From: Chitinophagaceae bacterium
GTDB taxonomy: Bacteria > Bacteroidota > Bacteroidia > Chitinophagales > Chitinophagaceae
DNA: 64,000 nt
Reading direction: 5' to 3'
Assembly: GCA_023957155.1 (NCBI GenBank)
Contig: JAMLHK010000011.1
Span: forward strand, 62,001-126,000
A model generated the notes under the pieces. The model had not been told where the DNA came from, ran no database searches, and worked only from the letters and a program-made list of their open reading frames with translations. This document shows positions 4,077-62,796 of the stretch, piece after piece. Within the stretch, counting starts at the first letter, position 1; every line of letters begins with the position of its first letter. The translations under genes and the position numbers were made by a program.

Positions 4077-4088
4077 AACAACGAACCG
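4077..4088 (+). repeat. Cassette-end tag AACAACGAACCG, copy 2
   Basis: Second copy, starting 12 bases after the VOC stop and followed by CTAAAATCG. A complementary-looking ATTAAGC follows about 30 bases later, so the whole site is short and degenerate compared with the one at 11291-11424. Confidence 0.5.
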
Positions 4089-4167
4089 CTAAAATCGTAT
4101 TGGCAACCGTGCAACCATTAAGCTGATAGGACAAAAACAAACAAGACAACAATAAAAAATTAACGAC

Positions 4168-5433
4168 ATGAACGAAATCATTTGCCCAAACTGTAATAAA
4201 GCCTTTAAAGTAGACGAAGCTGGTTTTGCTGACATACTTAAACAGGTTCGTGACCACCAATTTGAAGAAGAGATATTAAACCGACTTTCACTTGCAGAGA
4301 AAGAAAAAGAAAGTGCAGTCAAGTTAGCCGAAGCAAACGTGAGAAATTCTTTACAAGAACAACTTGCCAAAAAAGACAAGGAATTGACTGAACTCAAAGC
4401 CCAAAAGGACGCTGAACTTTCCCAAAAGTTATCGCAAAAAGAAACAGAGTTGTTGCAAATCAAAGCAAAACTTGAAAACGCAGAAGTAGCGAAGAAATTA
4501 GCGGTTACAGAAGCAACTCAAAAGATTGAAAAGGAACGTGACGAGTTGGCTAATGTTGTAAAAGGAAAAGACACCGAAAGACAGTTGCTTGAAAAATCAT
4601 TAAACGAAAAGTATCTGTCTGAACTAAAAGAGAAAGATGCAATCATAAAACACAAGGATGAAGAAATTGCTTTGAGAAAAGATATGAAGTTGAAACTGTC
4701 AACAAAAATGATTGGTGAAACACTTGAACAGCACTGTGAAACGGAGTTTAACAAACTTCGTGCAACAGCTTTTCAAAGAGCATATTTTGAAAAAGACAAC
4801 GACACAAAATCAGGAAGTAAAGGCGATTTTATTTATAGGGAAACAGACGAGGCAGGAAATGAAATTATTTCCATAATGTTTGAAATGAAAAATGAAGGAG
4901 ACGAAACAGCAACAAAAAAACGAAACGAAGATTTCCTTAAAGAACTGGACAAAGACCGCACAGAGAAAAAATGCGAATACGCTGTGCTTGTTTCTCTTTT
5001 AGAAGCAGAAAGCGAGTATTACAATTCAGGGATTGTAGATGTATCACACAAATACAACAAAATGTATGTTGTCCGTCCGCAGTTTTTCATTCCAATAATT
5101 ACACTTCTTCGCAACGCAGCTATGAACTCCCTGCAATACAAAGCAGAACTTGCATTAGTGAAAAATCAAAATATAGACATTACCAATTTTGAAGAAAAAA
5201 TAAACACATTTAAAGATGGGTTTGCAAGAAATTACGATTTAGCAAGCCGTAAATTCAAAACAGCTATCGAAGAAATTGACAAAACCATTGACCACTTACA
5301 AAAAACTAAAGACGCATTACTTTCATCTGACAACAATCTTCGTCTTGCAAATCAAAAGGCGGAAGATTTAACCATCAAGAAATTAACTCACGGCAACCCT
5401 ACTATGAAAGCAAAATTTGACGAACTGAAATAA
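4168..5433 (+). CDS. DUF2130 coiled-coil protein with PD-(D/E)XK-like core
   Basis: 421 residues in three parts. Residues 1-25 hold a small zinc-ribbon-like start ([15 protein letters not shown]). Residues ~30-175 are a long Lys/Glu-rich coiled coil. From ~180 comes the DUF2130 domain, containing GDFIYR (Asp220), a strand, and FEMKNE (Glu239-x-Lys241). That D…ExK spacing is what PD-(D/E)XK nucleases such as RmuC relatives show, so nuclease activity is a reasonable inference but unproven. The next gene, the giant helicase, starts 14 bases after its stop, so the two form an operon. The unit lies between cassette-type boundaries at 4077 and 11291, which points to joint transfer. Confidence 0.8.
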
Positions 5434-5446
5434 ATCACAATAACTC

Positions 5447-8400
5447 ATGCATGAATATTCTTCTCTTTTATTACATAAGCAGACACTGCCTTTTTTAAAC
5501 ATCTCGCTTCATCTGAACGATATTAAACCTGTTCAGTCATTGAGCATTGAAAACACATCTGAAAACAACTCTGCCCAACTTAGTATAAAGATAACTGCTG
5601 ACCTTCCTTGTATTGAGCCGTTTGATTGCAACGTTCCGTTTGTTCCTGCAAAAAATCAAGTAAAAATCCCGTTGGAGAATTTGAAAATAAATCGTGATTT
5701 TTTAAACAAATTATCCGAAACTGAAAAGACAGATTTTACCATTGAGGTTATTGAAAATGATGCGGTAATTATTAAAGAAACAATTGCTATAAATGTTCAT
5801 CCATTAGAACATTTCGGAGGGTTTCAAATTTTGCCTGAATTAATTGCAGCATACATTACACCTAATCATCCTTACATCTATCACATCAAAAGAAAAGCAG
5901 TTGACATATTAAAAAAGCAAGGACTAAGAACTGCTTTTGAAGGTTATCAGAGCAGCGACTCTGAACGAGTATTGCAAATAATGTCTGCAATTTATTCCGC
6001 CATACAAGGCGAGGAAATTGTTTACAGTTCGTTAGCACCTGGATACGAGGAAATAGGGCAACGTTTGCGGTTATTGAACACCATTCAGCAAGAAAAATTT
6101 GGCAACTGTATTGATATAAGTTTATTGTTTGCTGCTTGCTTAGAAGCGGTTGACCTCAATCCAATATTAATCATTGTTCGTGGCCATGCTTTTGTTGCTT
6201 GTTGGCTGCAAGACGACAAATTCTCTGAGATTATAAATGACGATAAAACTGCCATCACTAAACGACTTTCCAAAGGTATTCGTGAAATGGCTGCCGTTGA
6301 AGCAACAAGCGTTTGCAAGGGCAATAACATAAAGTTCAGTGATGCACTGAATGCAGGTGAGGCCCAGTTGGTTCAGAAAGAAGATTTTTTGCTTTCGGTA
6401 GATATAAAAAGAGCAAGAACACTCCGAATACGCCCATTGTCATTGCTTACAAACGCCACAGGAACGCAGTTAGATGAAGAAGCAATAAAACAGACCGAAA
6501 CGGCTGTAATGGAAAACCGTTTTGAAATTGGCACTATTTACCAAGACGAACTACTACAAGGCAAGCAACCAAAAACAAAGCAAAAAATATGGGAAAGGAA
6601 GTTGTTAGACTTATCGCTTCGCAACAACTTACTCAATCTGCACATCACTCGCAATATGCTACAGTTGGTTGATATTGACATCAGCCATTTGGAAGACACT
6701 TTGTCGGAAGGGAAAAGCTTTTCAATAATGCCCAATCCAAATGCAGAGGTTTTGCGAAAGTATAATTTGTTTGCTCAACCACTTCATAATTCATCACCAT
6801 TATTCCAATTAGCAAATGATGAATTAAAGCACAATCGCTTACTCACTCATTACCATCAGCAGGATTTAGATAACATTCTCGTTTACATCCACAAAAATGC
6901 AAAGCAAGCCATTGAAGAAAATGGTTCAAGCACTTTGTATTTAGCCGTAGGATTGCTTAAATGGTTTGATAGAAAAACTCCTGAACAAGCAAGATATTCG
7001 CCTGTATTACTATTACCAGTTGAAATAAGTCGCAGATCTGTAAATAGCAAGTTCACTCTGAAAAGCCGTGAAGAAGAAACGATGATAAACATCACATTGA
7101 TAGAATTTCTTCGTCAGGAATATGAATTAAATCTGGGAGCGTTAGAACAATTACCAACTGATGAAAAAGGCGTTGATGTAGCAAAAGTGATGGGCTTGCT
7201 ACGACAAGCTATAAAACAGTTAAGAGGATGGGATGTGTTGGAACAACTGGTGTTGGGTAATTTTTCTTTCAGCAAATTAATTCTATGGAAAGACATTGTT
7301 GTTCATCAGGAGGAGTTACTGAAAAGTGATATGGTGCGGAGTTTGGTTGATGGCAAATTATCATTCAATGAAAATCACGAACCGCATTTTGCGAATGATT
7401 TTGACAATGTTCAATCACAGTCTGTCGTGCTTCCAATACCAACCGATGTTTCACAAATGGAGGCGGTGCTTACTGCACAGCAAGGGCGTAGTTTTGTTTT
7501 ACATGGTCCTCCCGGAACAGGAAAATCGCAAACCATCACCAACATTATTGCAGATGCCTTGTATCGTGGAAAACGAGTATTGTTTGTAGCGGCAAAAAAA
7601 GCTGCATTAGATGTTGTTCAAAGGAGATTGGAGCAAATAGGGCTGGCACCGTTTTCATTGGAACTACATTCCAATAAATCTAAAAAATCGGATGTATTGG
7701 CACAACTGGCAAAATCAATTGAAACAGCAAAACTTGCACGAACAGCCGATTTTCAACAAGAAGCCCAACGCTTAGATGCTGCAAAAAAAGTAATCAGCGA
7801 TTATGTAAACATATTGCATCAAAAGCAACAAGTTGGTTGGAGTTTACATGACAGTATAACTGCTTTGGAAAATTATTACGATAAAAAATTCGCAAAGAAT
7901 TTTATTTCTGAAACTGTTCTGCAACAACTGAACGGAACACTTTGGCAACAATGGACAGATTGGCTTCCGCAATTTCAATCCATAACAAGTTTAATTGTTC
8001 ATCCAACCGAAAACCCTCATACCGCTTTGAATTTGTTGCAGTATTCACCTTCGGTAAATGATGAAATTGCTATTCAAAGTCAAAAACTTTTAAACCTTTT
8101 GCCTGATGTTGAAAGTAAATCTCAATCATTGGTAAAGGGAATATCCTTCCCCTTCTCAATTCAAACTAAATCGGAATGGGAGCAATTTGTTCAAGTCGCA
8201 ATTGCATTTCAAAAACTTCCCGACATTCCTTTAGAACTTATTCGGTATTTATCTGATAAACAAAACTACAGTGTTTACGAAGAATGGAGCAAAGCATTTA
8301 ATGAATACCAAACTGTTTTAGGCGGCATCCTAAAAGAATACAACCGAAATGTGCTGAGCACAGATGTTGCAGCGACTGAAGTGCAATGGAAACAAGCCCA

Positions 8401-11257
8401 ACAAAGTTGGTTCTTGCCAAAGTGGTTACAATCACGAAAAATTAAAAAGCAGTTATCTGTTTTTAGAAATACACCATTCAATAATGACAGCGAAGTAGAG
8501 CAGCTTTTCTCTTACAATAATAAGTTGCAGGAAGTGCAACGGCTTTTGCAACAAAGCCGTTTTGCATCAGTACAACAAGCCCTGAAAAATTTATTCAAAG
8601 ACGAACAAACGGATTTAACTGACATCAGCAACAAAGCTGCATTGGTTCAGGAAATAAGTAATTTGACAAATGCTTGGGAACGCAATGCTCTTGGCAAGTG
8701 GGTTCAAGTTTGGCAAGAAAAAAACTTTCAGCATTCTGATGAGATAAAACAAAAGAACTTATCTGCCATTGAAAATTTTATACAACTGACATCAGTATTC
8801 AACGAACAAGTTAAAAGTTACAAAACACTTACTGGTATCCATTTTCAACAGAAGGGAAACTGGAATAGCGAAACCATAAATCAACTCCATAACATTCAAA
8901 CGCATCTTCCACATTTAAAAAATTGGATGAACTATGTGCAGCTTCGTAAGCAGGGCGAAAACTTACAGTTGCATTGGCTCATAAACGCATACGAGAACAA
9001 ATTATGTGAGATTGAGAACTTGACAGATTACTTTTATTATACCGTTCATGCTTCCATTGCACAACGCATTATTTCACAACATGAGGCACTAAGCTTATTT
9101 AGTGCAGGCTTGTTTGAGAGTAAAATTGAACAGTATAAAAAAATTGCAAAGGATTTTCAGTATCTCACAATACAAGAGTTGCGAGTGAAATTAGCAGCAC
9201 AATTGCCGAATACCACAACAGAAGCTATGCAAAGCTCTGAAATAGGCATTTTACAACGAGCTATTAAAAACAGAGGCAGAGGATTAAGCATTAGAAAACT
9301 GTTTGATCAAATTCCAACATTATTGCCACGCATTGCACCTTGTATGTTGATGAGCCCGATTTCGGTAGCACAGTATTTTGATGTAAACACAAAGCATTTT
9401 GACATTTTGATTTTTGATGAGGCATCGCAATTACCAACCTGTGAAGCAATAAGTGCTTTAGCGAGGGCAAAACAATCAGTGATTGTTGGTGACCCCAAAC
9501 AAATGCCACCTACTTCATTTTTCAGCACCATCAAGTTAGATGAGGAAAATATGGATGTAGAAGATTTGGAAAGCATATTGGATGATTGTTTGTCATTGTC
9601 CGTTCCTTCAAAATATTTGTTACGACATTATCGTAGCAAACACGAAAGTTTAATTGCGTTCAGTAATGTAAATTATTATGAGAACAAACTGCTTACATTC
9701 CCTTCATCAGATGACTTGAACCGCAAAGTAAAGTATCATAACATCAAAGGTTTTTACGACAAAGGAAAAACACGAACAAACAAATTTGAAGCGGATGAAA
9801 TAGTTCAATACATTCAATCTCATTATAACAATTTGCACAAACGAAAATTGAGTGTAGGAGTTGTAACATTCAGTCAAACACAACAAAACCTGATTGAAGA
9901 CAAGCTGCAAAAACTCTTTATAAGCGACCCTAAACTGGAAGAATATGCCAATGAAAGTGACGAACCTTTGTTTGTAAAGAACTTAGAGAATGTACAGGGC
10001 GATGAACGTGATATAATTCTGTTTTCGGTTTGTTATGCACCCGATGAAGAAGGAAAAATGAGTATGAATTTTGGTCCCTTAAATCGTGATGGCGGCTGGC
10101 GGAGATTAAATGTTGCTGTAACTCGTGCCCGTTATGAAATGCACATTTTCGCTACACTACAAGCAGACCAAATAGATTTAAGCCGCACATCTGCCGAAGG
10201 CGTTGCCGGTCTCAAAGCGTTTTTGCAATTTGCTGAAAAAGGGCATTTAAGTATTCGCCCCGAAGATGTTCAGGAAGCATTAGACAGGCAACACTTGTCT
10301 GCATCCGTCAGCAAAAAATTAAAGAAAAAAGGATTTGAGGTTAAATGCAATATCGGCACTTCGGGATTTAAAGTGGATATAGGAATTGTTCATCCCGACA
10401 AACCACAGCAATATATTTTGGGAATTGTAATTGACGGTCATTACTATTTCAATGCACACACAACAAATGACAGAGAAATGGTAATGCCCTCTGTGCTTAA
10501 AGCCTTAGGGTGGAATGTTCACCGCATTTGGACAATGGACTGGTATGAAAATTCAAATAAGATTGTTGATGCAATAGTTGAAAAGGTAAAACATTTGCAA
10601 ACGCAGCCAGAAATTAAGGAAGAGGAAATTGCTGAACCACTTATTAAACCTTCATTTGAGCCAATTAAATCAAAGTCTGCAGAAGTTGCGACTAACAACA
10701 ATACAAGCAAACAAAAACCTTATGTAGCCGCTTTTTTAACTTCAATTTCTTCTGCGAACAGTGAAACCATATTTGAATTTCAAAACCGAAACACTATAAA
10801 ACAACAAATACAATCGTTGGTGGACACAGAAGCACCAATAAGCAAGAGTTTATTGTATAAAAAAGTATTGCAAGCATGGAATACCAGTCGTGCAGGTACA
10901 AGATTAGACAAGCATTTGGAAGGAATTATCAAAGAGATGAATATTGTGCAGACTATTCACCATCAGCCGTTTTATTGGAGCGACAACACAACTTTAGACT
11001 ATTACCGTAGTAATGACATTGAGAAACGAAATATGGAGGATATTGCCCCCGAAGAAGTTTTAGTTGCTTTACAGGAGGTTGTAACAAACAATTTGAGCAT
11101 AGAGGAAGCTGAACTACTTCGTTACTTGACTCGGACTTTTGGTTTTGCAAAAGTCGGCAAACAGATTGATACATTACTGCGTTACATTATTGACAAAGCA
11201 GTGAAACAAGGTATTGTGAAAAGAGAAAATGACAGAATAAAATTGGCTGACAAATGA
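5447..11257 (+). CDS. DUF4011-SF1 helicase-Vsr-like nuclease protein with DUF3320-type tail (Hhe-like defence candidate)
   Basis: A 1936-residue multidomain protein. Residues ~215-250 hold a transglutaminase-like GNC…GHAFVACW pair (Cys221, His247). The DUF4011 signature WERKLLDLSLRNNLLNL begins near 380. The SF1 helicase has Walker A GPPGTGKS (687-694), Walker B IFDEAS (around 1323-1327), LLRHYRSKHESL, NVQGDERDIILFSV and motif VI VAVTRAR (around 1555). After it, residues ~1610-1720 resemble a Vsr/PD-(D/E)XK endonuclease (FKVDIGIV with Asp1644, ILGIVIDG, LGWNVHRIWTMDW). The tail (PEEVLVALQEVV…) fits DUF3320. This architecture recurs in anti-phage defence islands. It is co-transcribed with the DUF2130 gene. 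No frame damage is visible, so it looks intact. Confidence 0.88.
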   Translation: MHEYSSLLLHKQTLPFLNISLHLNDIKPVQSLSIENTSENNSAQLSIKITADLPCIEPFDCNVPFVPAKNQVKIPLENLKINRDFLNKLSETEKTDFTIEVIENDAVIIKETIAINVHPLEHFGGFQILPELIAAYITPNHPYIYHIKRKAVDILKKQGLRTAFEGYQSSDSERVLQIMSAIYSAIQGEEIVYSSLAPGYEEIGQRLRLLNTIQQEKFGNCIDISLLFAACLEAVDLNPILIIVRGHAFVACWLQDDKFSEIINDDKTAITKRLSKGIREMAAVEATSVCKGNNIKFSDALNAGEAQLVQKEDFLLSVDIKRARTLRIRPLSLLTNATGTQLDEEAIKQTETAVMENRFEIGTIYQDELLQGKQPKTKQKIWERKLLDLSLRNNLLNLHITRNMLQLVDIDISHLEDTLSEGKSFSIMPNPNAEVLRKYNLFAQPLHNSSPLFQLANDELKHNRLLTHYHQQDLDNILVYIHKNAKQAIEENGSSTLYLAVGLLKWFDRKTPEQARYSPVLLLPVEISRRSVNSKFTLKSREEETMINITLIEFLRQEYELNLGALEQLPTDEKGVDVAKVMGLLRQAIKQLRGWDVLEQLVLGNFSFSKLILWKDIVVHQEELLKSDMVRSLVDGKLSFNENHEPHFANDFDNVQSQSVVLPIPTDVSQMEAVLTAQQGRSFVLHGPPGTGKSQTITNIIADALYRGKRVLFVAAKKAALDVVQRRLEQIGLAPFSLELHSNKSKKSDVLAQLAKSIETAKLARTADFQQEAQRLDAAKKVISDYVNILHQKQQVGWSLHDSITALENYYDKKFAKNFISETVLQQLNGTLWQQWTDWLPQFQSITSLIVHPTENPHTALNLLQYSPSVNDEIAIQSQKLLNLLPDVESKSQSLVKGISFPFSIQTKSEWEQFVQVAIAFQKLPDIPLELIRYLSDKQNYSVYEEWSKAFNEYQTVLGGILKEYNRNVLSTDVAATEVQWKQAQQSWFLPKWLQSRKIKKQLSVFRNTPFNNDSEVEQLFSYNNKLQEVQRLLQQSRFASVQQALKNLFKDEQTDLTDISNKAALVQEISNLTNAWERNALGKWVQVWQEKNFQHSDEIKQKNLSAIENFIQLTSVFNEQVKSYKTLTGIHFQQKGNWNSETINQLHNIQTHLPHLKNWMNYVQLRKQGENLQLHWLINAYENKLCEIENLTDYFYYTVHASIAQRIISQHEALSLFSAGLFESKIEQYKKIAKDFQYLTIQELRVKLAAQLPNTTTEAMQSSEIGILQRAIKNRGRGLSIRKLFDQIPTLLPRIAPCMLMSPISVAQYFDVNTKHFDILIFDEASQLPTCEAISALARAKQSVIVGDPKQMPPTSFFSTIKLDEENMDVEDLESILDDCLSLSVPSKYLLRHYRSKHESLIAFSNVNYYENKLLTFPSSDDLNRKVKYHNIKGFYDKGKTRTNKFEADEIVQYIQSHYNNLHKRKLSVGVVTFSQTQQNLIEDKLQKLFISDPKLEEYANESDEPLFVKNLENVQGDERDIILFSVCYAPDEEGKMSMNFGPLNRDGGWRRLNVAVTRARYEMHIFATLQADQIDLSRTSAEGVAGLKAFLQFAEKGHLSIRPEDVQEALDRQHLSASVSKKLKKKGFEVKCNIGTSGFKVDIGIVHPDKPQQYILGIVIDGHYYFNAHTTNDREMVMPSVLKALGWNVHRIWTMDWYENSNKIVDAIVEKVKHLQTQPEIKEEEIAEPLIKPSFEPIKSKSAEVATNNNTSKQKPYVAAFLTSISSANSETIFEFQNRNTIKQQIQSLVDTEAPISKSLLYKKVLQAWNTSRAGTRLDKHLEGIIKEMNIVQTIHHQPFYWSDNTTLDYYRSNDIEKRNMEDIAPEEVLVALQEVVTNNLSIEEAELLRYLTRTFGFAKVGKQIDTLLRYIIDKAVKQGIVKRENDRIKLADK

Positions 11258-11290
11258 CGAATTACTCTGGACAACCGTAAAGAAAAATGA

Positions 11291-11424
11291 CCGATAACAT
11301 GGGCTTAGCGAAAGTGGCGGTTCAGTGATTAAGTAAACATTTGTGCTTCGTATCAAGTGCAGTCCTGGCAGACAGTTTTGTGCTTCGTAATCTCCACCTT
11401 CGCCAAGCCCAAAACCGTTAGCAC
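11291..11424 (+). repeat. attC-like imperfect inverted repeat between cassette units
   Basis: The left arm starts CCGATAAC then ATGGGCTTAGCGAAAGTGG; the right arm is CCACCTTCGCCAAGCCC then AAAACCGTTAGC (11394-11422). The two pair over ~25 positions with a few mismatches, with ~75 bases between. The ATAAC/GTTAG ends mimic the R''/R' ends of integron attC sites. Two direct copies of TTGTGCTTCGTA lie inside (11341-11352 and 11378-11389). Confidence 0.55.
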
Positions 11425-12041: not shown

Positions 12042-12058
12042 AACAACGAACCGCTAAC
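12042..12058 (+). repeat. Cassette-end tag AACAACGAACCGCTAAC, copy 3 (right edge of island)
   Basis: Third and fullest copy of the boundary tag, starting five bases after the SRPBCC stop. No GTTAGC partner follows and base composition changes afterwards, so this is read as the right end of the island. Confidence 0.55.
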
Positions 12059-14801: not shown

Positions 14802-15170
14802 CTACTTTAAAGACAGCTTTTTATTCAATTGTTCCTGGTTTGCTAACGCAAAATGAATCGCAGACTTTATGAATTCGTTTAAAGACAGGCTGTTTACTGC
14901 TGCAAATGCAGCGGCTTCTTTATGGAGTTCAGATGGGATTCTTACATTGAAGGTTCCTTTATAGGTTTTGTTAGGTTCCTTCCCGATTGATTTACAAGTT
15001 GATATATAATCATCAATTGCTTCATGAAAAGCTTTTTTCAATTCCTTTACAGAACTGCCTTCAAAATTGATCAGATCATCAATGCCTAATACTTTTCCAC
15101 AAAAGATTTCATCTTCCATGGAAAAATGGACTGACGCCAGATAATCTTTATACTGTAGAATGTCATTCAT
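14802..15170 (-). CDS. hicB: HicB-family antitoxin with RHH domain
   Basis: 122 residues: an N-terminal HicB fold (YKDYLASVHFSMEDEIFCGK, then GIDDLINFEGSSVKELKKAF, then DDYISTCKSIGKEP) and a C-terminal ribbon-helix-helix (TFNVRIPSELHKEAAAFAA, LSLNEFIKSAI) that would bind the operon promoter. It follows hicA on the same strand with an 8-base overlap, the usual hicA-hicB order. Intact by length and motifs. Confidence 0.87.
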   Translation of the reverse strand: MNDILQYKDYLASVHFSMEDEIFCGKVLGIDDLINFEGSSVKELKKAFHEAIDDYISTCKSIGKEPNKTYKGTFNVRIPSELHKEAAAFAAVNSLSLNEFIKSAIHFALANQEQLNKKLSLK

Positions 15171-15426
15171 CCCTGATATGTCCCTTTTCTTTTAAAAATT
15201 CGATCACTTGCCGGATCGCGTAAACTTTTACTATGTTTTTCGGATGAGGCTTATGCAGACTTATAATATTATTGTTTGCATCTGAAAATTTTCTTCTTGA
15301 TCCTCCTGTTTTTCCTTTAGCTATTTCGGTATCCCCGCATAGTGAAAGAAATTTGACCAATTCTTCCCATGTTAAATCATTAGGAACAGATATCAATCGT
15401 TCAAATAGCTTGTCACGCTTTGCCAT
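15163..15426 (-). CDS. hicA: HicA-family mRNA interferase toxin
   Basis: 87 residues with the dsRBD-like HicA core. The conserved GGSRRKF strand is followed by the catalytic-type His in LHKPHP, and the protein ends with AIRQVIEFLKEKG. HicA toxins cleave mRNA and are neutralised by HicB, encoded immediately downstream with an 8-base overlap. The upstream acidic helix EELVKFLSLCGD is typical. The module appears intact, unlike the ParDE remnant at 2.2 kb. Confidence 0.88.
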   Translation of the reverse strand: MAKRDKLFERLISVPNDLTWEELVKFLSLCGDTEIAKGKTGGSRRKFSDANNNIISLHKPHPKNIVKVYAIRQVIEFLKEKGHIRDE

Positions 15427-61065: not shown

Positions 61066-62796
61066 GTGAAATTATCAGTAAGGGTTGCCCTGCTTTGTTT
61101 ATGGTTACCGGTGATTTTCTTTTCTCTATGGCTGACGTTTCTGTTTTGCACTAAAAGCTATGATGGTTTTATCGAGTGGCTGGTGGCTGCTCTTCAAAAG
61201 AGCGATAACTGGGTACCTTTTTTCAAAAGCCGGTTTTCTGTCAATATATTTCAATGGGTTAAACCGCTAATAATAGTATTTGATGTGGGCGTGTTGTTTT
61301 TCTCGGGGTGGAATTTGTACAATTATAAAAAGATAGAAGCAGCGGTCCTGCCCTGCGCATCGTTTTTTTGGGGAAAGATTAAAAACGGACTACACTGGTT
61401 TAAAGGATTGCCCCGTTTTGAACGTTCTGTTTTTTGGATCATTACGCTTTTTGCATTTGGAAAGGCACTTTGGTATGACATCGTATTTCCCTTGCAATAT
61501 GATGAAGCCTGGAGCTATAATTATTACATCAGCAATGACCTGTGGCAGAGTTTTTTATTGCCTTCAAATAATCATAAGCTCTTTACATTCGTTGCCTGGT
61601 GGTTTAACCTTCTTCCGTTTGACAAGCTTTTCCTGATCCGGCTTCCTAACGCTTTCGCCGGCGTTTTTCTGTTTATTACCTTCTTTTATTTTACACGAAA
61701 GTATTTCAGCAGCGGAGTGGCACTGCTGGGGCTTGCCTGGCTTGCTACCTGCGTGCCGGTGGCAGGGTACATGACTTCAGCCAGATCTTATATCTATGTT
61801 ATTTTTTTCTCTCTGCTCTTACTTATTCTGTATTTTGAGTCCGATCGTTTTTCCCGGACAAGGTATTTTCTTTTTCCCTTCACATTAACGATCGTGTTGG
61901 GATATTTTTCAAACCCTACCTTTTTCTTTTGCCATTTTATTTTAAGCGTTTACTTTTTTGTCCGGTTGCTGATGCTAAGGCGGTTTAATGTAATGAAGTG
62001 TTTATTTACAGGGAACCTGGCCGCCCTCCCCTTTCTTGGCTTATTGTATACTCCGGATATACTGGGCGGTCATTTTTCGGGATTGTTGGATATAGCATAT
62101 AAGGAAAATAATAATCATAACAATTTTTTTGACAGTATCAGGTTTAATGCAGATTTTCAAACCGGGTTTGAAAACCAGTATATCTTTTTCGTGGTAATAT
62201 TGTTGGTTGGCACCGGGTTACTGCTTACAAAATTTCCAAAACCCAGGGACCTACTTTTTTATGCTGTACTTTCTATTGCCTGGTTACCGGTATATTCACT
62301 CCTGGTACATGATGAAACCTCGAGGCATAAAACGATTTATATAACCATAAGTGTTACACTGGTATTGATGTTTATAATGCAGTCTCTCCTAAATAAATAC
62401 CTGGGAAACAAGTACCTGGTTGTTCTTGTAGCGCTGATCATAACCGGGATAAATACTTTTAATCTCAACCGGCACAGCTGGTTTACCTGGAGTGTTCCTA
62501 TAGACAAAAGTGTGGAGGATGTCAGCCGTGTCTTACTTGACAATCATGCCGGGGATTGCTATGTTATTCCTTTTTATTATAAGCCGGGCATAGAATTTTA
62601 TCATAAGATCAACACAGAAAAAATCAGGTTATATATGGCGGAGGCCAATAGTGTGGATCATGATGAAACGCTTTTTATAAAAAAATACCCGGAGTTTATC
62701 TTAGCGGATCAGGCACAGAAGGATAAGATAATGAAAGACAAATACAGGCTGATTTTTTCCGATGAGTTTATTGCCCTGTATAAATATAGACGATAA
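61066..62796 (+). CDS. GT39/PMT-like membrane glycosyltransferase
   Basis: 576 residues from a GTG at 61066 (a TTG at 61057 is also possible; no ATG is near). About 11-12 membrane helices. The first large loop has YDEAWSYNYYISNDLW with the acidic pair typical of GT-C enzymes and a SNNHKLFTFVAWWFN motif. Such enzymes transfer a sugar from a polyprenyl-phosphate carrier to a lipid or protein in the periplasm. Acceptor unknown; no glycan operon adjacent. Confidence 0.82.
   Translation: MKLSVRVALLCLWLPVIFFSLWLTFLFCTKSYDGFIEWLVAALQKSDNWVPFFKSRFSVNIFQWVKPLIIVFDVGVLFFSGWNLYNYKKIEAAVLPCASFFWGKIKNGLHWFKGLPRFERSVFWIITLFAFGKALWYDIVFPLQYDEAWSYNYYISNDLWQSFLLPSNNHKLFTFVAWWFNLLPFDKLFLIRLPNAFAGVFLFITFFYFTRKYFSSGVALLGLAWLATCVPVAGYMTSARSYIYVIFFSLLLLILYFESDRFSRTRYFLFPFTLTIVLGYFSNPTFFFCHFILSVYFFVRLLMLRRFNVMKCLFTGNLAALPFLGLLYTPDILGGHFSGLLDIAYKENNNHNNFFDSIRFNADFQTGFENQYIFFVVILLVGTGLLLTKFPKPRDLLFYAVLSIAWLPVYSLLVHDETSRHKTIYITISVTLVLMFIMQSLLNKYLGNKYLVVLVALIITGINTFNLNRHSWFTWSVPIDKSVEDVSRVLLDNHAGDCYVIPFYYKPGIEFYHKINTEKIRLYMAEANSVDHDETLFIKKYPEFILADQAQKDKIMKDKYRLIFSDEFIALYKYRR

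Follow-up and report, generated by a model that had tools for sequence, protein, structure and literature searches.

The 64,000-nucleotide (nt) stretch of the Chitinophagaceae contig JAMLHK010000011.1 that we have analyzed (positions 62,001 to 126,000; hereafter, the window) carries two adjacent genes, encoding a DUF2130 protein and a giant protein of the named anti-phage family ProA, which form a real transferred cassette. Both open reading frames (ORFs) are open on the plus strand, as a preliminary description of this DNA had reported. The DUF2130 gene lies at 4168..5433 (421 amino acids, aa; PF09903 match) and the ProA-type giant gene at 5447..11257 (1936 aa; NF058533 match). The spacer between the DUF2130 stop and the giant gene start (5434..5446, plus strand) has 13 nt; the close spacing noted earlier was thus correct, while the "14 bases" given for it was the coordinate difference. 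ProA itself is already known, and the DUF2130 partner, which is what the locus adds to the named family, makes the pair a variant for which no published description was found in the main texts searched. We give an even chance to the pair being a horizontally moving two-gene anti-phage cassette, formed by ProA plus a recruited DUF2130 nuclease helper.

The ProA and DUF2130 genes have moved as one block

A scan of genome contigs with the giant protein returned 16 loci, seven with an intact DUF2130 gene directly upstream, one with a relic and eight without DUF2130. Including the window, this gave eight intact pairs, spread over six different neighbourhoods and no fewer than three families. The other hosts were Flavobacterium sp. 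ACAM 123, an uncultured Chitinophagaceae, Niabella drilacis and metagenome-assembled genomes (MAGs) assigned to Sphingobacteriaceae, Chitinophagaceae, Bacteroidetes and Niabella. Six neighbourhoods were counted because only loci L069 and L074 (one upstream gene) and the two Niabella loci (several genes) shared flanking genes substantially, the remaining flank similarities being weak or short. The spacer, counted to the ProA start homologous to that of the window, measured 12-13 nt in 8/8 intact pairs.

In blastn comparisons, DNA homology to the window started at 4094-4168 and stopped at 11246-11320 in all seven other pair loci (L067, L068, L069, L070, L074, L079 and L080). The shared cassette is one ~7.1 kb block, with outer limits 4094..11320 on the plus strand and with both edges varying by locus within these ranges. 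The identities of ProA and DUF2130 were correlated over the eight pairs (r = 0.84, a value reached in 7 of the 10,122 permutations sampled; host relatedness uncorrected), as expected for a unit travelling together. The two same-genus genomes of the family sample had no ProA, which fits acquisition by transfer.

Beyond these loci, ProA-like matches were present in 324 plasmid records. No close ProA relative was confirmed in viral contigs, and an unannotated faecal record labelled "Bacteriophage sp." held a 38% relative; the phage collection contained no close DUF2130 relative at E 1e-10. A decayed copy was found at L082 (9183-12097), where DUF2130 is frame-broken and a deletion extends from inside it to ProA residue ~1240, leaving the last third of ProA. 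L069 and L074 also carry, at 7904-8713, a gene of 269 aa (93% identity between these loci) whose end lies 9 nt ahead of DUF2130; it is a possible third cassette gene in that branch.

The giant protein is a full-length ProA

The giant protein matched NCBIfam model NF058533, "anti-phage protein ProA," over its full length (2084 bits vs. a cut-off of 1500; residues 18-1902, profile 1-1903). Residues 380-1932 also matched the PADLOC candidate family PDC-S37 (1168 bits), which corresponds to the DUF4011-to-end part of ProA. Judged by sequence, the giant gene is therefore of a known kind. The preliminary description had given it the label Hhe. This identity was rejected because the protein scored 757 bits, in two stretches, against the Hhe model NF042953, below its curated cut-off of 2000; the helicase-nuclease part is common to both. 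No primary paper behind the ProA model turned up in our literature search, and neither of the models beside it in NCBIfam, NF058534 (HyoA) and NF058532 (CH3_S_uro_de_S), is named as a partner.

The domains follow the order of the ProA family, all on the plus strand: an N-terminal region (residues 1-380, 5447..6586), DUF4011 (residues 385-555, 6599..7111), a split superfamily 1 (SF1) helicase (residues 667-1569, 7445..10153), a Vsr-type restriction endonuclease (REase) of the MTES_1575 type (residues 1620-1713, 10304..10585) and DUF3320 (residues 1775-1820, 10769..10906). DUF4011 and DUF3320 were found by Pfam, the helicase and the REase by Pfam and motifs. The helicase halves correspond to AAA_11 (residues 667-773) and AAA_12 (residues 1378-1569), with Walker A at 687-694 and Walker B at 1324-1327. 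The excerpted text of PMC3710099 describes both the MTES_1575 REase and a winged helix-turn-helix (wHTH) overlapping DUF3320. In an alignment of 35 ProA-type sequences, among them that of the window, the motifs GPPGTGKS (Walker A) and DEAS (Walker B) were unchanged in 35/35; the REase residues D1663, R1676, D1698 and W1699 were likewise the same in all, and D1644 in 34/35. The architecture proposed earlier thus stood, with both helicase and nuclease motifs intact.

The N-terminal region had been described as carrying a transglutaminase-like Cys221/His247 pair. The pair itself was kept in 32/32 ProA sequences that have this region; the short-form rows L062-L064 lack the region carrying it. Our model of residues 1-380 resolved a β-sandwich at ~3-122, which the structural matches listed spanned, and had a predicted local distance difference test (pLDDT) score of ~32-34 over residues 191-220. 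A PDB profile search with the region gave no match with E below 0.89. The C221 segment is of low confidence in the model and may be transglutaminase-like. Short ProA-like proteins (L062-L064 and L097-L110) have frames of ~1550-1650 aa in which the NF058533 match begins only at ~308-362, and some of their genes adjoin large multi-gene blocks.

The DUF2130 protein is a predicted nuclease

The upstream protein matched PF09903 (DUF2130) with an E-value of 7.8e-89 and 297.8 bits, against a Pfam gathering score of 26.7, and matched nothing in PADLOC, NCBIfam or PHROG at E 0.001. Residues D220, E239 and K241 were invariant in 21/21 sequences, the window's included. The pattern D...(D/E)-x-K is the characteristic residue motif of the PD-(D/E)XK nuclease superfamily. 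The structure model, of medium confidence, comprises a long N-terminal helix of coiled-coil type (residues 17-177), a PD-(D/E)XK-type core (~184-324) and a helical C-terminus. Its fold matches were to PD-(D/E)XK nucleases, with a restriction-endonuclease-like fold. Residues and model together supported the earlier reading of D220…E239-x-K241 as a nuclease core, and we regard DUF2130 as a predicted coiled-coil PD-(D/E)XK nuclease. As had been suggested, two nuclease-type proteins and a helicase have moved as one cassette.

Based on these parts, the ProA helicase, with its DUF4011 and DUF3320 (wHTH) parts, would engage invading DNA and move along it, and the Vsr-type nuclease of ProA would nick or cut this DNA. 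DUF2130, as a recruited coiled-coil PD-(D/E)XK nuclease helper, would then degrade the DNA opened by ProA. We infer that this copy has anti-phage activity, that DNA is the substrate, that the two proteins cooperate and that the events follow this order.

The pairing marks one ProA subclade

In a FastTree phylogeny of 35 ProA rows, built from rows of at least 1400 aa (thus leaving out L060 and L081), the eight pair rows and L053 formed one supported clade, with L071, which has no DUF2130, just outside. Locus L053 encodes a ProA 84% identical to that of the window with its frame open and has no DUF2130 gene; its homology begins in the DUF2130 3' end, of which ~20 codons are kept in frame. Since these codons remain, DUF2130 was lost in L053. 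In the family sample, 15/195 genomes passed the ProA cut-off, and DUF2130 adjoined ProA in 2/15 and was absent beside it in 13/15. In the phylum sample, 22/395 genomes passed; the pair was present in 2/22 (G000 and G034, the same two as in the family sample) and 20/22 were without it. In general, then, ProA is not dependent on DUF2130, and an obligate coupling of the two was ruled out.

The pairing thus marks one ProA subclade, in which DUF2130 lies 12-13 nt upstream, whereas most other sampled ProA loci are without it. The conserved neighbourhood anticipated by the preliminary description was found in the eight intact loci, within this subclade only. The DUF2130 tree, built from rows longer than 250 aa (thus without L082, for one), did not resolve a single origin of the pairing, branch support being weak; 17 distant DUF2130 paralogues gave no tblastn match in the search feeding it.

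Such a distribution would also be seen if two independent defence genes sat in one transferred block, with ProA working alone and DUF2130 acting as a stand-alone nuclease that shares promoter and transfer, not mechanism. We hold this explanation to be unlikely, if far from negligible. It is favoured by the many ProA loci without DUF2130, by L053, whose ProA frame is still open after the loss, and by the class sample described below, in which most close DUF2130 genes have no ProA. The constant spacer of the eight pairs and their correlated divergence argue for a tighter bond, although both also fit simple co-transcription.

DUF2130 relatives adjoin other defence genes

We have searched for close DUF2130 relatives on chromosomes with the window's protein as query (E 1e-60; class sample of 395 genomes). 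One was present in 28/395 genomes, and the pairing with ProA occurred only in G000 and G034. The remaining 27 places (26 genomes) were all covered, some of them on short contigs and two (L178 and L179) with a DUF2130 frame missed by the ORF caller. Their neighbours were mixed: many were ordinary, and those of defence-like type comprised a GmrSD pair, a C5 methylase accompanied by an AAA protein, PDC-M57B and PDC-S05.

Close DUF2130 relatives were also found in 54 plasmid records. Among 15 plasmid neighbourhoods viewed, six had a gene of defence or ATPase type on the same strand no more than 100 nt away and nine had none. A P. sabiae plasmid carries DUF4297-HerA 35 nt downstream of DUF2130 and a PDC-S37 protein ~1 kb upstream, and in a Citrobacter plasmid DUF2130 stands between an OLD-type endonuclease (2 nt upstream) and a methyltransferase (59 nt downstream). 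Three related Lactococcus plasmids (including pNP40) have a TrlF ATPase 46 nt downstream (62 bits to the Ppl of PADLOC for the one scanned), and one further plasmid has an AAA ATPase within 100 nt. The Citrobacter-type DUF2130 was present in 3/5,426 E. coli genomes. Two of these three were viewed, H6 and ET245, and in both DUF2130 lies 2 nt behind an OLD nuclease gene, within a type III restriction operon in H6 and behind a type I restriction operon in ET245. This arrangement resembles the window in having the same DUF2130 subfamily tightly spaced to a nuclease-ATPase gene, but the partner is OLD-type and DUF2130 comes second.

The IMG/VR contigs gave 16 loci with close DUF2130. Here, the genes just ahead of it were type III restriction genes (at 12 nt), genes for OLD-like proteins (at 2 nt), a cyclase gene of the cyclic oligonucleotide-based antiphage signaling system (CBASS; at 12 nt) and one for a type I restriction subunit (at 14 nt). 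The OLD-like loci L195, L196 and L197 are mutually related, and the OLD proteins of H6 and ET245 are 75-77% identical to that of L195, which PADLOC scores as Old. In L204 (3642-9095), unassigned genes precede the CBASS-type cyclase, and DUF2130 comes 12 nt behind it. Overall, close DUF2130 relatives lay 2-46 nt from OLD nuclease, type I/III restriction, CBASS cyclase, DUF4297-HerA or TrlF ATPase genes.

We have then compared the neighbours with a control by scanning with PADLOC the genes next to close DUF2130 copies that have no ProA, taking immediate neighbours on the same strand and no more than 70 nt away. A match of at least 60 bits was obtained for 7/15 scanned neighbours (L168, L177, L194, L195, L196, L204 and L209) and 6/15 had no match. 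Weak matches at L155 (35 bits) and L180 (23 bits) were left uncounted, both passing the E 1e-5 of the control. Eligible neighbours outside the scan were that of L197, two 120-aa ORFs (L195 and L197) and two small ones (L167 and L174). As control served the distant DUF2130 paralogue of the family genomes, for which 0/10 scanned neighbours matched at E 1e-5 (10 of 12 eligible, leaving out L044 and a 94-aa ORF of L040). The overall difference gave a Fisher p = 0.013, with the 60-bit line set after the data had been seen. For viral contigs alone it was 5/7 (p = 0.003) and for chromosomes alone 2/8 (p = 0.18), the control being chromosomal. These data are suggestive of an association of close DUF2130 with defence genes, strongest on mobile DNA.

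The earlier proposal of an undescribed two-component version accordingly held for the conserved neighbourhood and needs narrowing in two respects, its restriction to one ProA subclade and the presence of the DUF2130 subfamily beside other defence genes. We prefer to read DUF2130 as a putative portable nuclease gene that several immune operons have taken up, the ProA pair being one case. Besides ProA, the subfamily would have been recruited beside OLD nucleases, type I/III restriction enzymes, a CBASS cyclase, DUF4297-HerA and TrlF ATPases. Tentatively, and with somewhat under even expectation, we propose that it is a general plug-in nuclease giving all these mechanistically different systems an extra DNA-degrading arm. 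If true, bacterial immunity would have a shared component in this one nuclease family, seen next to at least six kinds of defence gene across Bacteroidota, Proteobacteria and Lactococcus, and DUF2130 could act as a marker for finding new defence systems.

The variety of effectors that DUF2130 adjoins would also suit a modulator or safety device that keeps damage to the host in check or controls the adjacent effector, not attacking phage DNA. Shield offers a parallel: in the excerpt of PMC10270631, its RmuC-domain nuclease ShdA defends alone and accessory components can lower ShdA activity. RmuC is also listed as a DISARM accessory in the excerpt of PMC10952713, so that, as far as these excerpts go, RmuC and DUF2130 are alike in being nuclease-fold proteins that accompany more than one defence system. 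DUF2130 is, however, a different Pfam family, with no RmuC match at E 0.001 (a membrane anchor was not searched for). A modulator seems improbable to us, as the three catalytic-type residues, invariant throughout, fit a working nuclease.

Still less probable, in our view, is a role of the pair in DNA repair or housekeeping with no part in defence. Close DUF2130 copies often stand beside ordinary genes, the distant paralogue lies on other contigs or far away in many family genomes, and the excerpt of PMC10250203 counts among the core genes of P. aeruginosa a DUF4011 gene, albeit one that lies on the edge of a defence hotspot. Opposed to this are the patchy distribution of ProA, with its absence from the two same-genus genomes, the NF058533 membership of the giant protein and the defence genes neighbouring DUF2130 relatives.

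Our literature search for DUF2130 together with anti-phage found nothing in main texts, with most subscription papers, preprints and supplementary tables lying outside. Among the three papers mentioning DUF2130, none was on defence by title or abstract start, and one mention, in the excerpt seen, concerned carbohydrate-category correlations. Main texts on COG4487, PF09903 and MG148 likewise contained no description of DUF2130 as a recurring defence part, and those on OLD and DUF4391 neighbours nothing on DUF2130.

Repeats and genes flanking the cassette

An imperfect inverted repeat follows the ProA stop at window positions 11291-11424 (CGATAACATGGGCTTAGCGAAAGTGGCGG ... CCACCTTCGCCAAGCCCAAAACCGTTAGC), and we take it to resemble an integron attC end. 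Its left half has similar counterparts after ProA in L068, L069, L074 and L053. A consensus of such left halves occurred 27 times, scattered, in 9/19 related genomes (two mismatches or fewer; 0 in the reversed control). An integron origin was rejected: no integrase exceeded the cut-off in this 88%-complete genome, the hairpin energy was unremarkable (z -0.64) and the window's own copy fell outside the consensus at two mismatches. Promoter-like sites (20 vs. 20.5 in shuffles) and terminator-like sites (8 vs. 5.8) were about as frequent as in shuffled sequence.

An identical 16-mer, AACAACGAACCGCTAA, stands at 4077-4092 and 12042-12057, on either side of the cassette, each time just after an unrelated gene: an 82-aa ORF, glyoxalase-like by eye but without a match in Pfam, and an AHSA1 gene. 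It was present in 9/12 same-genus genomes, this one included, and absent (0) from the reversed control. According to Pfam, a ParD-type antitoxin gene (2167-2448) and a HicAB-type pair (14802-15426) also lie near the cassette.
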